Assembly (NCBI GenBank): GCA_025054775.1
Contig: JANWZA010000030.1
Span: 89,623 to 140,320 of the forward strand
Direction: 5' to 3'
From: Microscillaceae bacterium
GTDB taxonomy: Bacteria; Bacteroidota; Bacteroidia; Cytophagales; Microscillaceae
DNA length: 50,698 nucleotides
The position numbers were made by a program, and so were the translations under genes. Positions within the stretch are counted from its first letter, which is position 1; every line of letters begins with the position of its first letter. The notes beneath the pieces were generated by a model, which was given only the letters and a program-made list of their open reading frames with translations, had not been told where the DNA came from and did no database searches. Below, in pieces: positions 8,710 through 36,138 of the stretch.

Positions 8710-10344
8710 GTGAGCAACCTAAAAAATTCTATCAGTCAAATTCGTCTGCCTTTTATCGTAGGGCTCACCTTAGCCTGTGGTATCTTGATTGGGGCTACTT
8801 TGTTCGGAAATAATAAAAAAACAAGCCAACTCTTACAAGGCTATGCCAAGTTCAAAGAAATTCTAGGCTACATAGACCAAATGTACGTAGATACCGTAAA
8901 TACAGAAGAACTCACTGACTATGCCATTGAAAAGATGTTAGAAAAATTAGACCCACACAGTGTTTACATTCCTGCCAAAAATGTACAAATGGCAAATATG
9001 CAATTAGAAGGTGATTTTGAAGGCATAGGCATTGAGTTCAACATTTTTAGGGATACTATCATTGTCGTAGCTCCTATATCAGGAGGCCCCTCAGAACAAG
9101 TAGGGCTACAATCAGGCGACAAAATTATCAAGGTAGACGGCAAGAATGTAGCAGGTATAAAAATTGACAACATGCAAGTCTTCAAGCTATTACGAGGAAA
9201 GAAAGGAACCAAAGTTAATCTAGAAATCAAGCGAAAAAACAGTAAAGAACTGCTCAATTATACTATCATTCGTGATAAAATTCCACAACATTCGGTAGAT
9301 GTAAGCTACATGATTGATAAAAAAACAGGTTATATTAAAGTGAGCCGCTTTGCCGCTAATACCTACCGCGAATTCAAAGAAGCCCTAGAAAAGCTAAAAG
9401 CCAAAGGTATGCAACAACTTTTAATTGACCTGCGAGACAACCCCGGTGGATATCTTGACCGCGCATACAACATGGCTGATGAACTGCTAGATGGCAATAA
9501 AATGATTGTGTATACTGACGGCAGAGGTACACGCTATGACCAACAATATAGAGCCCACATTGACGGAGCATTTGAGAAAGGAGCAGTAGTGATTTTAATT
9601 GATGAAGGAAGTGCCTCTGCCTCAGAAATCCTAGCAGGTGCTATACAAGATAACGACCGAGGGCTAATCGTAGGAAGACGCTCCTTTGGAAAAGGATTAG
9701 TACAAGCCCCTATCGATTTGAGCGACGGCTCTGAATTAAGACTTACTATTTCACGCTACTATACCCCAAGTGGAAGATCTATCCAAAAGCCTTATTCACA
9801 TGATGGCAAAAAAGAAGACTATAACTTAGAACTTTACCACCGTTTCCAAAAAGGCGAGTTTTTCTCGGCAGATAGCATTAAGGTAAACGAAAAATTAAAG
9901 TACAAAACTTCAAAAGGTCGCATCGTATACGGTGGCGGTGGAATTGTACCCGATGTATTTGTGCCCTTGGATACTACCGAAAATAGCAAATTTTTGAATG
10001 AACTTTACAGTAAAAATATCCTTCGTGAATTTTGCCTCAATTATGCCAATGATAACAAAGCCACGCTTTCCAAAATGAAATTTTCAGAATTCCGTACTAA
10101 TTTTCAAATCACAGACCAACTGCTTAATAGCTTAGTAGAAAATGCCAAAAAATCAGGAGCAGCCTACTCTGATGCTGATTTTCAACGCTCTAAAGAGTTA
10201 ATTAGAAACCACATGAAAGCCTTTATTGCGCGTAGCCTGTATGGGCAAGAGGGCTTCTTTCCTATTTGGCTAGAACGTGATAAAGATTTTCAAACCGCTA
10301 TCAAACTGTTTGACAAAGCCCGCGAAATTGAGCAAATGAAATGA
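8710..10344 (+). CDS. S41-family carboxy-terminal processing protease (CtpA type)
   Basis: A 544-residue membrane-anchored or exported serine protease. An N-terminal hydrophobic segment (LPFIVGLTLACGILIGATLF, about 13-32) is followed by a PDZ domain (FEGIGIEFN to VDGKNVAGI). The peptidase core has LIDLRDNPGGYLDRA, the serine region GSASASEILAGA, and the lysine region GRRSFGKGLVQ, which together form the Ser-Lys dyad. A helical C-terminal extension of roughly 150 residues follows. The start codon is GTG; no better ATG precedes the hydrophobic segment. The gene is monocistronic, with a strong terminator hairpin 38 bases past the stop. Such proteases trim C termini of envelope proteins; the substrate here is unknown. 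Confidence 0.93.
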   Translation: MSNLKNSISQIRLPFIVGLTLACGILIGATLFGNNKKTSQLLQGYAKFKEILGYIDQMYVDTVNTEELTDYAIEKMLEKLDPHSVYIPAKNVQMANMQLEGDFEGIGIEFNIFRDTIIVVAPISGGPSEQVGLQSGDKIIKVDGKNVAGIKIDNMQVFKLLRGKKGTKVNLEIKRKNSKELLNYTIIRDKIPQHSVDVSYMIDKKTGYIKVSRFAANTYREFKEALEKLKAKGMQQLLIDLRDNPGGYLDRAYNMADELLDGNKMIVYTDGRGTRYDQQYRAHIDGAFEKGAVVILIDEGSASASEILAGAIQDNDRGLIVGRRSFGKGLVQAPIDLSDGSELRLTISRYYTPSGRSIQKPYSHDGKKEDYNLELYHRFQKGEFFSADSIKVNEKLKYKTSKGRIVYGGGGIVPDVFVPLDTTENSKFLNELYSKNILREFCLNYANDNKATLSKMKFSEFRTNFQITDQLLNSLVENAKKSGAAYSDADFQRSKELIRNHMKAFIARSLYGQEGFFPIWLERDKDFQTAIKLFDKAREIEQMK

Positions 10345-31677: not shown

Positions 31678-33615
31678 TTAATGAGCATCTACAATTTGTA
31701 TGGGCACGTCAGAAATATCATCAAACAAGAAGAGATATTTAACAATAGCTCCCTGCTCATTGCGAATAGCTGCAGCACTAGCTTTGGTAAAGATTTTATG
31801 ATTAGCACGTCCTTTTAGGAATACGTAATCTGACCATTTGTAGCCACGCGCTAGCGTACTTTTGGCTTCTTCTACTTTTTCATAGGAGTCAAAGATATAT
31901 TCAATGGACATGTTATGAAAGTCTGAACTTTCATAGCGAAGTTTGGCTTCGGTAAGTTCGTTTACATTTGTAATACGAAACTTTTTAGTAGTTTCTATTA
32001 CGAGGTTAGTCATATTAAACAAATACTCTTTTTCTTTGGCTTCGCGTTGGGAGCGTTCTAATGACTCTTGGGTAGCTTGCAACTCTTCCATATTTTGTAG
32101 CATTTCTTCTTCTTGACTTTTCATTTGTTCAGTCATGAGTTTAGACTCTTCCAAAAGTCTGCGGGTGGTTTCGCTAATACGTACTGCTGAAATAGCTGAA
32201 GCAATACTTTCTGCCACTCGCTCTACGAACTCAATTTGGTAAGGCTCAAAAATCTTGAAGGAGGCTAATTCTATTACTCCAAAAACTTGTTCGTTCAATT
32301 TAAGTGGCACAATTAGCAAGCAGTTAGGGTTTGCTTCTCCTAGTCCAGAGGTAATTTTTACGTAATTGTCAGGCACTTCACGCAAGAAGATAGTATTTTT
32401 TTCTTGCCAAGCTTGCCCTGCTAAGCCATCGCCTTTGTAGATTTTTTGTTCTAGGAATTTTTTCTTGTCCCATGCATAGCAAGAGATGAGCGTCATATAA
32501 GGCTCTTCGCTTTCTTGGGTTTCTTCTACGATAAATAGCCCTCCTTGGTTAGCATCTACGTATTTTACCAAGTTGGAGATGAGCGAGTCACCGAGTTGTT
32601 GAATATCGTGGTTGTTTTTACGAATTAAATCACTGAATTTAGCAAAGCCCTCGTTTGCCCAACCACGGCGCCGCTCTTCTTCTGAAACCTTGGCAAGGTT
32701 GTTCCGCATTTCTATGAGTGCATTGCCAAGCACATCTTTTTCACTCAAGGGTTTGTATTGAGCATTATAGTTGCCTTTACCGATATTTTCAGCAAAGCGC
32801 GAAGTTTCCCGAAGGGCATTTACTAATTTATCTGCTGAGGCAGCCATTTCACCGATTTCATCATCTCTAAATTTGATATGTTTTTCTTCTGGGAGTTCTC
32901 CTTGGCTGAGTTTTATGAATATGCTGTTAAGATATTTGATAGGTTTTACGATGTGGTTAGTAATGATAAAAGAAACGATCAAGCCGAATACTAAAAGCAC
33001 CGAACCCAGCCCAATAGTAACGGTACGCAATACATTAAACGAGTTCAAAAGTTTATCTTGAGCCACTTGCGTTTCTATGGTTTTTTGGGTAGAGATGGAG
33101 TCAAGCTTTGCTAATACCTTGTTAGAAATAGGAATGATCTTATCGGCAATATCGGTTTCCGCTACGAGTTTAATTCCGGGGTCTTCATAGTCCTCAAAAT
33201 CTACTAATTCGCTCATGATTTTCTTTTGGATCTTGAGCAGTTTCTCAAATGTTACGAGCACTGAGTCCATAAGTGTTACTTGTTGCTTATTTTTCCAGTA
33301 GCTCATCAAACGGACTAGACGGTCCTTGAACTCGGGGTATTGGATATGCAATTTTTTCAATGCTTCTTTATCTTGGTTACTATCACGGACATATACCCAG
33401 CTAATTATATGTAATTTGGACTGCGTAACCAACAAAGTAAAGTTATTGATTTGCTCTAAAGAAGGGTTTACTACCTCAGAGGCTTCCTTTATGATAGAGG
33501 CACTTTGATTCAGAGTGATTATGCTCAAAACGGCATTGAATAGAAAGAAAAACAAGATGAGCATAAAGCCTCCGAAAATCTGTTGACCTATCTTAAGACT
33601 GCGTAGCTTGAACAT
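31678..33615 (-). CDS. HAMP-GAF-PAS-like membrane sensor without output domain (paralogue 3)
   Basis: A 645-residue sensor. Transmembrane helices at about 12-32 and 193-215 flank a helical periplasmic domain like the 4HB type. HAMP (about 216-270) and a HAMP-like IGKGNYN linker follow, then GAF (about 340-490; GFAKFSDLIR, QGGLFIVEE, SGLG, LLIVPLKLNEQVFGVIELAS). A coiled coil with MEELQATQESLERSQ precedes a PAS-like C-terminal domain. The protein ends about ten residues after it, with no effector. It is the closest of the three paralogues to a chemoreceptor in shape, but the MCP hairpin tip is absent. Its role is unknown. Confidence 0.85.
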   Translation of the reverse strand: MFKLRSLKIGQQIFGGFMLILFFFLFNAVLSIITLNQSASIIKEASEVVNPSLEQINNFTLLVTQSKLHIISWVYVRDSNQDKEALKKLHIQYPEFKDRLVRLMSYWKNKQQVTLMDSVLVTFEKLLKIQKKIMSELVDFEDYEDPGIKLVAETDIADKIIPISNKVLAKLDSISTQKTIETQVAQDKLLNSFNVLRTVTIGLGSVLLVFGLIVSFIITNHIVKPIKYLNSIFIKLSQGELPEEKHIKFRDDEIGEMAASADKLVNALRETSRFAENIGKGNYNAQYKPLSEKDVLGNALIEMRNNLAKVSEEERRRGWANEGFAKFSDLIRKNNHDIQQLGDSLISNLVKYVDANQGGLFIVEETQESEEPYMTLISCYAWDKKKFLEQKIYKGDGLAGQAWQEKNTIFLREVPDNYVKITSGLGEANPNCLLIVPLKLNEQVFGVIELASFKIFEPYQIEFVERVAESIASAISAVRISETTRRLLEESKLMTEQMKSQEEEMLQNMEELQATQESLERSQREAKEKEYLFNMTNLVIETTKKFRITNVNELTEAKLRYESSDFHNMSIEYIFDSYEKVEEAKSTLARGYKWSDYVFLKGRANHKIFTKASAAAIRNEQGAIVKYLFLFDDISDVPIQIVDAH

Positions 33616-33662
33616 AATGTTTGCGTAAGACCGTGATGTTTTTCATTTTATGAAACTAATAG

Positions 33663-33670
33663 CAAAGATA
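33663..33670 (-). promoter_or_regulatory. Candidate -7 element of GAF/PAS sensor 3
   Basis: The minus strand reads TATCTTTG, exact TAnnTTTG, 47 bases before the sensor start. The -33 element is weak. Confidence 0.45.
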
Positions 33671-33756
33671 TAAATAAAATAGAAAACATTGTGCCAATGT
33701 TGTGAATTTTGAAAAAACTATCAAAACCCATAAAACTCTTTTTATTAAAAAATTCC

Positions 33757-33764
33757 TACTTTTG
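33757..33764 (+). promoter_or_regulatory. Candidate -7 element upstream of the 21-bp array and murE
   Basis: TACTTTTG matches TAnnTTTG. If used, it would produce a leader of about 400 bases containing the whole repeat array before murE. No other -7 match was found between here and the murE start. Confidence 0.45.
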
Positions 33765-33806
33765 CCTAACCCTAAGCACAAACCTACTACCCCCATGAAC
33801 ATAAAT

Positions 33807-34142
33807 GTTTACAATAAATAATAAACTATTACAAAGCAATAGTAAACAATTACCATTTAATAGTAAATACTTCAAATTTAATAGTGAATGATTAGAGTAC
33901 AATACCAAATGTTTAGTTTTTAATACTAAGTGATTACTATTTAATAGTAAATATTTACTATTTAATAACAAATGTTTAGTTTTTAACATTAAAAAATATA
34001 CTACCAGCGATAAAAGTATTAACTTTAATATTAAGAAATTAACCTTTAATATTAAGTAATTAACATTAAACGCTAGAAATTTAACATTAAACATCAAAAA
34101 CTTAACATTAAACGTTAAACTCTTAACATTGAATATCAAAAA
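33807..34142 (+). repeat. Array of sixteen 21-bp degenerate units
   Basis: Sixteen consecutive units of 21 bases, with no spacer and no net phase loss over 336 bases, each starting at 33,807 plus a multiple of 21. The loose consensus is nTTAnnnTTTAATAnTAAAn. Examples are ATTACTATTTAATAGTAAAT, TTTAGTTTTTAATACTAAGT and TTAACATTAAACATCAAAAA. Several units are near palindromes, such as TTACTATT-T-AATAGTAA. Later units drift toward TTAACATTAAAC. Exact 21-bp spacing is two helical turns, so binding sites would all face one side of the DNA. It is not a CRISPR array, as there are no variable spacers. Confidence 0.85.
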
Positions 34143-34176
34143 CGTACTTTTTACTATTCATACTTAAACATTTAAA

Positions 34177-35649
34177 ATGAAAAACTTAAACTCTCTTTTA
34201 GATAACTTTCCTTTGCCTTATCAAATCTTACAAGGGGATACCAATTTACAAATTCAAGCTATTCAATTTGACTCTCGCAAGGTGCAAACCGAAGATGTAT
34301 TTGTGGCAGTGCGCGGTACGCAAACCGATGGGCATAGCTACATAAGCCAAGCCATTGAGCGAGGTGCCAAAGTTGTGATTTGCCAAACCCAACCCGCTAC
34401 TTTTGCCGAAGGCGTTACTTACATTCAGACCGAAAACTCTGCTAAATTTTTAGGATTTTTAATGTCTAACTTCTATGATAATCCTTCGCACAAGCTCAAA
34501 GTAGTCGGTGTTACAGGCACAAATGGCAAAACTACTAATGTAACCCTGCTTTATCGCCTGTTCAAAGCCTTAGGCTACAAAGTGGGCTTGCTCTCTACGG
34601 TAGAAAACCGCATTAACGATACCGTGTATCCCGCTACCCTCACTACGCCCGATGTTCACGAACTACATTTACGCCTCGCTCAAATGGTGCAAGAAAAATG
34701 TACTTATTGTTTTATGGAATGTAGCTCTCACGCAATTGTTCAGGAGCGAATTGCAGGAGTGAGGCTTACGGGTGCAGTTTTTACTAATATCTCGCACGAC
34801 CATTTAGACTTCCACGGCACATTTGACAATTACATCAAAGCCAAAAAGAAACTATTTGACGAATTGCCTCATGAAAGTTTTGCATTAACTAATATAGACG
34901 ACAAGCGCGGCCGCATAATGCTACAAAATTGCGTTGCAAAGCTACAAAAGACCTTCGCACTGCGAAGTTTTGCCGATTTTAAGGCAAAAATCATTGAAAA
35001 TACCTTGCACGGGCTTTGTTTAGAGATAGACAACCAAGAAGTTTGGTTTAGGCTGATAGGCAGTTTCAATGCGTATAACCTATTGAGTGTGTATGCTACC
35101 GCCATACTTTTAGGGCAAAAGAGCCACAACGTACTGCAAGCCCTCTCCGAGATAGAACCCGCCCAAGGAAGGTTTGAGCAAATTCGTTCTCCCAAAGGCA
35201 CTATCGGTATCATAGACTATGCCCACACTCCCGATGCCCTGGAAAACGTACTGAAAACCTTGCAAGATATTAAACCACCACACGCCCAAATCATTACCGT
35301 AGTCGGTTGTGGAGGCAACCGCGACACCACCAAACGACCTATCATGGCGGCTATTGCTTGTCAATATAGCGACAGAGTTATCCTCACCTCCGATAATCCA
35401 CGCTTTGAATCTCCCGAAGCCATTTTAGCTGATATGCAAAAAGGTGTTAAGTTCAATCAAAAACACAAAACCCAAACCCTCGTTCTCCGACAGGAAGCCA
35501 TTGCAGAAGCCTGCAAAATCGCCCAACCCAACGACATTATTTTGGTAGCAGGCAAAGGACACGAAACGTACCAAGAAATTGAAGGCATAAAGTACCCTTT
35601 TGATGACCGCGAGGTGCTGCGAAAGGCTTTTGAAAGCCTTCATACTTAG
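34177..35649 (+). CDS. murE: UDP-MurNAc-tripeptide synthetase (meso-diaminopimelate adding)
   Basis: A 490-residue cytosolic Mur ligase adding the third stem-peptide residue in peptidoglycan synthesis. The ATP loop reads VVGVTGTNGKTTN, and the central NISHDHLDFHG and C-terminal DYAHTPDALE and VVGCGGNRDTTKRP segments are standard. The substrate motif is DNPR (in LTSDNPRFES), which is the meso-DAP type rather than the lysine type. The start MKNLNSLLDNFPL is preceded by the 21-bp array. No other mur gene is adjacent here, so it stands outside the usual dcw cluster. Confidence 0.96.
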   Translation: MKNLNSLLDNFPLPYQILQGDTNLQIQAIQFDSRKVQTEDVFVAVRGTQTDGHSYISQAIERGAKVVICQTQPATFAEGVTYIQTENSAKFLGFLMSNFYDNPSHKLKVVGVTGTNGKTTNVTLLYRLFKALGYKVGLLSTVENRINDTVYPATLTTPDVHELHLRLAQMVQEKCTYCFMECSSHAIVQERIAGVRLTGAVFTNISHDHLDFHGTFDNYIKAKKKLFDELPHESFALTNIDDKRGRIMLQNCVAKLQKTFALRSFADFKAKIIENTLHGLCLEIDNQEVWFRLIGSFNAYNLLSVYATAILLGQKSHNVLQALSEIEPAQGRFEQIRSPKGTIGIIDYAHTPDALENVLKTLQDIKPPHAQIITVVGCGGNRDTTKRPIMAAIACQYSDRVILTSDNPRFESPEAILADMQKGVKFNQKHKTQTLVLRQEAIAEACKIAQPNDIILVAGKGHETYQEIEGIKYPFDDREVLRKAFESLHT

Positions 35650-36138
35650 TAAGTGCCAAAGGTTACTTCTTCTTTGTATTTCTCTTGTAGAAAAGTTTGC
35701 TAATGGTTAGCACAAATGAAAGGGCAGGGAGAAGATAATTAGGGCGTTCCTTTTGCCCTTTTCGCCCTAAGGCTCAAAGGGCAAAAGGACGGGCTTTACA
35801 GGGCTTCGCTAACGCTTCGGTGCTTCGCACCAAGCCCTGCAAAGCAGGGCTTGCCCTTTCAATCCCTAACGCAAGAGAACAACTTTTCAACCATTTACCC
35901 ACTCCCCAAAGATTTGTTCATAAAATAGCTAAACCTTCCCTTGAAAAACAAGACCTGCTCTGTATAAAATAAAATCTTCTTTACATTCAAACCCTTATTG
36001 AACACACCTTTAATCACACGCACTAACAAAAACAAACCCATTAACATAAAAGAAAAAAACTAAACCAAGAAAGAGAAAAACTAAACCAACTGCAAAGGAT
36101 ATATTGTTGTATCATCAAAACAATAACCCGTTGAAAGT
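35650..36138. other. Intergenic region with dispersed repeat, copy B
   Basis: About 490 bases between murE and the NUDIX gene. It contains the dispersed repeat at 35,741-35,872, then an AT-rich tail with no recognised motif. No ORF with a convincing start was found. Confidence 0.65.
35741..35872 (+). repeat. Dispersed hairpin-rich intergenic repeat, copy B
   Basis: A 132-base GC-richer block that stands out in AT-rich surroundings. It holds an 11-bp perfect inverted repeat TCCTTTTGCCC (35,748-35,758) / GGGCAAAAGGA (35,779-35,789). A second hairpin is AAGCCCTGC (35,832-35,840) / GCAGGGCTT (35,844-35,852) with an AAA loop. It ends near AATCCCTAACGC. The first half matches, inverted, the block at 15,838-15,897. 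It looks like a REP-like non-coding repeat; mobility by another transposase is only inferred. Confidence 0.75.

Follow-up and report, generated by a model that had tools for sequence, protein, structure and literature searches.

The short tandemly repeated repetitive (STRR) heptanucleotides of heterocystous cyanobacteria are dispersed tandem repeats built on 7 bp that lie between genes. Iteron and operator arrays are tandem sites set at whole helical turns, tolerant of substitution and sensitive to phase, that belong to one origin or operon, and REP and BIME elements are dispersed intergenic palindromes of 20-40 bp that form hairpins and are not known to be situated at divergent promoters. BrickBuilt of Porphyromonas gingivalis consists of 19 copies scattered between genes, in which a 23-nt unit is imperfectly repeated in tandem (1 to 22.8 units), with up to 6% indels within the element and with leader and tail segments that have inverted ends; in the excerpted account the units are described as direct repeats (PMC4596501). 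The TAACTGA heptamers, found in the Beggiatoaceae, the Cyanobacteria and some Bacteroidetes, are direct repeats of fixed sequence that occur mostly in short sets (PMC4679880, also in excerpt).

The locus considered here lies in the window, the whole stretch of 50,698 nucleotides from a Microscillaceae bacterium that was analysed, and is one of about 20 arrays of 21-bp units in that genome. Like the STRR heptanucleotides the arrays are dispersed, based on 7 bp and placed between genes, and we know of no two-turn order or converging halves in STRR. With iteron and operator arrays they share tandem sites at whole helical turns; unlike these they are some 20 dispersed, mirror-symmetric arrays, and their protein is putative. 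They resemble REP and BIME elements as dispersed intergenic palindromic repeats, but that identity was rejected, the arrays being long, AT-rich and of 12-22 units, with five of the 17 scorable regions divergent. Like BrickBuilt they are some 20 dispersed intergenic tandem arrays with unrelated neighbours in a Bacteroidota genome, from which they differ, as far as the excerpt goes, in having 21-bp units, 12-22 to an array, almost no indels and two converging halves; leader and tail segments with terminal inverted repeats were not found in their flanks (PMC4596501). Like the TAACTGA repeats of the excerpted account they are heptamer-based, mostly intergenic, lineage-specific and without a common gene function, whereas the 21-bp higher-order unit, diverged but in phase, and the mirror polarity set them apart (PMC4679880). 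These two are known relatives in kind, neither having phase-locked converging halves in the parts of the accounts available, and the titles and abstract beginnings listed in searches of a PMC library contained no description of converging 21-bp arrays.

The preliminary description had reported sixteen 21-bp units in exact phase, and the 336 bases at 33807-34142 do divide into sixteen 21-mers. The periodic stretch proved slightly wider (about 33801-34172); the own borders of a phase-tracking model, which found 0 phase slips, were 33838 and 34189, and the part of the left half before about 33838 matches the consensus poorly. Self-match was 0.66 at lag 21, 0.52 at lag 7, which marks a sub-period, and about 0.25-0.4 at lags other than multiples of 7; set against the value at lag 21, that at lag 7 speaks against tandem copies of one heptamer, and no heptamer array was found in ~276 kb of sampled own sequence. 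Tandem Repeats Finder returned overlapping rows with periods of 21, 42 and 63. The array and its halves are as follows.

33801..34172, no strand: whole array, its 21-bp units in unbroken phase throughout; the genome has about 20 such arrays (periodicity and phase model)
33801..33986, + strand: left half, of forward-type units (phase model, with its switch at 33987, and + strand matches of the three-unit model R1)
33987..34172, - strand: right half, of reverse-complement-type units converging on the left half (leave-one-out scoring, phase model and three-unit model)

Near-palindromic units, which had been noticed before, are present, and the consensus then given for the unit fits the left half, whereas the right half is nearer to its reverse-complement form. 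In leave-one-out scoring the right half reached 92.1 when reversed against 27.6 when direct; scored with its own left half alone, the direct orientation was the better one (30.8 against 13.9).

Whether other arrays existed in the genome had been put forward as a check, and 19 full arrays and one five-unit partial array were found. A search of the 3.01 Mb in 65 contigs with the window array gave 49 matches in 20 places; a typed six-unit consensus recovered 18 of these together with two stray matches of 16-19 bases, and a three-unit (63-bp) sequence model recovered all 20. The 120 matches of the model at E<=0.01 all fell in arrays, in the partial copy or in one coding stretch (C3:34967). Only 150 of 3428 candidates were scored in the first pass of the model search, so that degenerate copies may be missed. 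The model alignment comprised 73 of 87 candidate segments, 14 at an edge or near a switch having been dropped by hand, and since the 87 were preselected for phase its freedom from gaps is partly due to selection. The 19 arrays, which include neither the partial array at C32:68.4 kb nor a degenerate stretch at C23:108.5 kb, all lie between genes in 18 intergenic regions, and the elements measure about 0.25-0.5 kb at 11-23% GC. With periods from 5 to 70 considered, no tandem array was detected in ~276 kb of readable own sequence at a threshold that the window array passes; this control was made up of the beginnings of chosen contigs without known arrays and tests for other repeat types, not for array density. 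Four of the 20 sampled contigs were all N and were the source of spurious 'arrays' and of three shuffled matches in the control scan.

Flanking genes vary widely. Five regions are divergent, three convergent and nine co-directional, and one is at a contig end. A scan of 34 flanking proteins against NCBIfam left nine without a family at 1e-10 and placed among the others lysS, CusA-type efflux genes, fabG, nadC, pnp, purL, nadD, ispE, purN, ligA, fadE, clpB and murE, with one neighbour heptosyltransferase-like under the curated cut-off. Whether such arrays lie before cell-wall genes had been a further proposed check; there is no cell-wall theme among these neighbours.

The arrays are bipartite, the left half reading as one directional unit and the right half as its reverse complement, with a palindromic middle unit between. 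Across all arrays the majority-letter unit changes with position from ATTTAATGTTAAGTTTTTAAT at the left end through ATTAAATATTAAATATTTAAT in the middle to ATTAAAAACTTAACATTTAAT at the right end. Forward and reverse units share one common 21-bp phase, so that the array is continuous and it is the asymmetry of its units that changes along it. From the left to the right half AT-skew rises in 19 of 19 arrays, compared with 30 of 60 control windows of low GC; for a fall in GC-skew the counts are 18 of 19 and 32 of 60. The control windows are half-overlapping and, at 24-29% GC, lie above the arrays' 11-23%. A leave-one-out profile built from the left halves of the other arrays placed the right half in reverse in 17/19, the direct orientation being preferred for L021 and for the first L025 array. 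When each right half was scored by its own left half only, the reversed orientation was better in 14 and the direct in five, the window array among the five. A two-orientation model found a forward block followed by a reverse block in 18 of the 19 arrays, with L021 (C6) lacking a switch, and in the 18 the switch lay at a mean of 0.53 of array length (sd 0.11). In L018 the orientation reverts close to the right end, and ahead of the second L025 array a short reverse-type stretch lies in the gap that separates it from the first. Orientation calls made unit by unit are less tidy than the model, with single opposite calls in several arrays (e.g. L025, L027, L029). A caveat that must be applied to these results is that the unit profile was built with the right halves reversed, an assumption shared by unit calling, the two-orientation model and the three-unit model; the scoring with left halves only and the skew test are free of it.

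Divergence among the arrays is considerable, 1919 of 7014 bases (27%) departing from the position-specific consensus. Over 7438 bases the phase-tracking model listed five phase slips, which come to about four because the slip between the two L025 arrays was entered twice; of the others one is inside L019 and two are near the left border of L024, at most 76 bp from it. When 0, 1, 2 or 4 indels were put into simulated arrays, the model found 0.03, 1.05, 1.8 and 3.25 slips. Bacterial non-coding DNA that evolves neutrally would be expected to hold dozens of indels at such divergence, and about four slips therefore indicate that the phase is probably constrained. Units of 21 bp amount to two turns at 10.5 bp per turn, so that sites at whole helical turns with phase kept, as in protein-binding arrays, are what was found; together with the lack of a common reading frame this makes the double helix the likeliest source of the constraint. 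Array size is narrow, at 12-22 units (mean 17.6, CV 0.19). Within the 19 arrays neighbouring units are 0.657 identical, a value that declines to 0.499 at a distance of 17 units; between units of different arrays identity was 0.601 when relative positions correspond, 0.597 when mirror positions are compared after reverse complementation and 0.565 for all units. The gradual change of the unit along the array had been taken to suggest stepwise duplication. The change is real, but it recurs across arrays and thus reflects position; it does not record local stepwise duplication, against which the near equality of same-position identity across arrays to that between neighbours also speaks.

We tentatively read the arrays as a two-turn-phased, mirror-symmetric, double-stranded scaffold for a putative AT-rich DNA-binding protein, and not as a murE switch. 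Each unit would be a near-palindromic site spanning two helical turns, and with that spacing all sites would face the same side of the double helix. The array could then be coated cooperatively, in a mirror-symmetric complex, by an AT-rich DNA-binding protein of the nucleoid type that is dimeric or oligomerises. Substitutions would be tolerated because many weak sites add up, and insertions or deletions would not, because half the array would be thrown onto another face. The target of such an element might be the chromosome and not any single adjacent gene, with the element serving between genes as an anchor, a boundary or a nucleation site; it may descend from a heptamer satellite, three heptamers making 21 bp and heptamer arrays occurring in sister genera. 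Both the protein and the function are inferred. An array for a dimeric DNA-binding protein had been among the initial suggestions; the two-turn phasing is compatible with it, and many other arrays exist in the genome.

The selfish minisatellite that had been offered as another option remains a serious rival and is possible. Heptamer slippage would have made (TTAAATG)n-like arrays that spread and decayed, with 21-bp order and polarity as by-products of copying, e.g. fold-back copying of one strand. The sub-period of 7 inside the unit accords with this, as do findings in relatives. In all tallies of relatives the own genome is included: arrays were matched in 6/57 genomes at 1e-3 in the first survey, and with the three-unit model in 5/15 family genomes at 1e-3 and 3/193 order genomes at 1e-7, the last under stricter filters and with 27 candidates scored per genome listed. 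The two other order genomes matched at 1e-7 held a uniform 21-bp array of one direction and pure heptamers, respectively. Pure (AAATGTT)n arrays are present in G002 and G011 (genus g3), the former also having, flanked by heptamers, a single 21-bp array that is almost uniform and runs in one direction, and an (AACATTA)n array was found in G033, which belongs to another family. The sampled sequence of G008 contains many plain heptamer arrays and some 15-bp and other tandem repeats, together with AT-rich 21/42-bp arrays, several of which lie between inverted heptamer arrays, e.g. (AAGGTTT)n and (AAACCTT)n; the richness of this sister genome in heptamer repeats makes neutral satellite copying a serious rival. 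GC-skew falls from left to right in 17 of 19 G008 arrays against 62 of 100 control windows, and the AT-skew rule holds in 7/19 only; as these arrays were retrieved for their resemblance to one of their number and filtered for 21-bp runs, their periods are a biased sample. Arrays of G013 have no clear polarity (GC-skew falls in 0/3, AT-skew rises in 2/3). Mirror-type arrays were found in the own genome only among the genomes examined, and as far as tested the arrays are lineage-specific in place and sequence, with 21-bp order and inverted layout recurring in part. The lack of an array at orthologous murE genes is also as a minisatellite would have it. Set against these points are units that keep phase at 27% divergence, the narrow size range, the AT-skew in the same direction in 19/19 arrays and the finding that neighbouring units are hardly more alike than same-position units elsewhere. 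Only one short copy came to light, although the 63-bp model should detect well-kept ones (among the 150 of 3428 candidates scored), and strand-neutral fold-back would be expected to yield divergent arrays as often as convergent ones.

An additional observation in G008 is that at five loci (L123, L124, L125, L126 and L131) the arrays between inverted heptamers have a layout like that of head-to-head fused telomere repeats.

Carried further, the scaffold interpretation would make these some 20 mirror-symmetric, helically phased intergenic arrays a new class of chromosome element, selected for phase, polarity and size and not for exact sequence, derived from inverted heptamer satellites and nucleating a two-sided nucleoprotein complex (boundary, anchor or centromere-like), a proposal that in this full form is rather doubtful. 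If phase and polarity are selected, the arrays would be a simple, readable code for a chromosome-organising complex, and their DNA could be used directly as bait for its protein; to our knowledge the nucleoid proteins of Bacteroidota are little known. If they are neutral, a satellite can gain higher-order, inversion-symmetric structure in a compact bacterial genome, such structure being known mainly from eukaryotic centromeres.

A MITE-type mobile element with an internal minisatellite is improbable, for all that BrickBuilt is similar in copy number, intergenic sites, Bacteroidota host and tandem units in the excerpted account (PMC4596501). The 150-bp flanks of the 18 regions have no common leader, tail or terminal inverted repeats; flank-against-flank comparison gave 40 short matches, the longest of 28 bp at 89% and away from the borders. 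Words of 6-10 bases are common to both borders in 10/18 regions (one of 10 bases, at L020), a count that has no control and no common word length. Phage and plasmid records contained no array match, and viral contigs none for one strict pattern.

A transcribed hairpin, whether as structured leader RNA or as an extruded cruciform, would account for consensus halves that are mutual reverse complements, and each of the 19 arrays had a + strand folding energy lower than the average for 15 dinucleotide shuffles (z -1.5 to -8.4). Pairing of the halves at the best register was, however, 0.635 within an array and 0.653 between arrays, and same-array halves were the better partners in only 8/19, or 4/19 with G-U allowed; as they pair no better than halves of different arrays, there is no compensatory change. 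Shuffles of unit order fold about equally well in most arrays, and a search of 33200-34600 against Rfam found no known structured RNA or riboswitch (0 matches at E<=1). On these three grounds the RNA hairpin is probably not what is selected, and we regard the reading as quite improbable. The arrays have 19 flanks that face a start codon, and in eight a -7-like motif on the appropriate strand separates the array from the gene (right of L019, L024 and L029; left of the window array, L015, L019, L024 and L030), so that the array is probably outside that transcript, though the motif is short enough to occur by chance. The window and L015 arrays end within about 5-12 bp of a start codon.

TAnnTTTG-like motifs are the Bacteroidota type of promoter. 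The surroundings of the window array contain the following.

31678..33615, - strand: divergent neighbour, an ORF of 645 aa without an NCBIfam match at 1e-10 (ORF list and NCBIfam scan)
33663..33670, - strand: TAnnTTTG pointing towards the divergent gene and lying between it and the array (motif scan)
33757..33764, + strand: TAnnTTTG (-7-like), candidate murE promoter upstream of the array (motif scan)
34177..35649, + strand: murE, downstream neighbour of the array (NCBIfam PRK00139)

That the window array is a murE leader controlling cell-wall synthesis is very improbable. The layout on which this rested was confirmed: the -7-type motif at 33757-33764 lies 43 bp before 33807, murE starts at 34177, 35 bp after the array end at 34142, and the next + strand match after the candidate promoter is at 34398, inside murE. 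Minus-strand matches occur at 33779-33786 and 33873-33880, and inspection by eye of the candidate promoter found no obvious -33 element. Against a murE leader, some 20 arrays adjoin unrelated genes, and relatives have no array at this place. A match to murE was found in 13 of 14 family relatives (none in G014 at 1e-100), upstream DNA was present for 11 of the 13 (absent for G008 and G010), and the proposed check for an orthologous array before murE found it in none of these 11. G013 does have a weak 21-bp-periodic stretch, but one situated a gene further away from murE, ahead of the preceding gene, which by eye is ruvC. The idea of a murE-specific or cell-wall leader thus fell on both counts: the window array is not a murE feature, and specificity for murE is without support. 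In one relative (L142, G006) the murE match contains one TAA inside the matched stretch. In the window as a whole TAnnTTTG occurs 113 times on both strands, where shuffles give 77 as the expectation and 97 as the maximum in 100, an excess consistent with a promoter of the Bacteroidota type.

Coding sequence for a heptapeptide-repeat protein (21 bp being seven codons) has practically negligible probability: the window array has a minus-strand ORF of 127 aa and some other arrays have similar open frames, but L019, L020, L029 and L030 have at least nine stops in every frame and no open frame is common to all. A CRISPR array was rejected, the 21-bp units standing head-to-tail without spacers and adjacent units being 66% alike. 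Intrinsic curvature as the selected property found no support either. Curvature predicted by a wedge model, with parameter values entered by hand, exceeded that of dinucleotide shuffles (mean z 3.1 over 19 arrays, lowest 0.3 in L021), and compared with column-permuted arrays of the same period it was within range and without excess (mean fraction 0.27; window array 0.05).

Several further stretches of the genome deserve mention. The five-unit partial array (L016:10004-10111; G000:C32, ~68.4 kb) coincides in part with the predicted 5' portion of an ORF for an RND adaptor (8952-10130, minus strand); the true start of this ORF is probably further in, and the partial array may have been read as coding. 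The degenerate AT-rich stretch L136:3440-3690 (G000:C23, ~108.5 kb) has traces of a 42-bp order and is possibly a decayed array. Directly after an array, a coding stretch with 21-bp periodicity (L015:6169-6268; G000:C3:34967-35026) matches the array model, and the C-terminal part of the gene that holds it weakly resembles MutS2 (below the cut-off). In the window, 400 bp after murE, positions 36049-36089 contain two 21-bp copies (AAAGAAAAAAACTAAACCAAG) that are 95% identical and of another sequence type.
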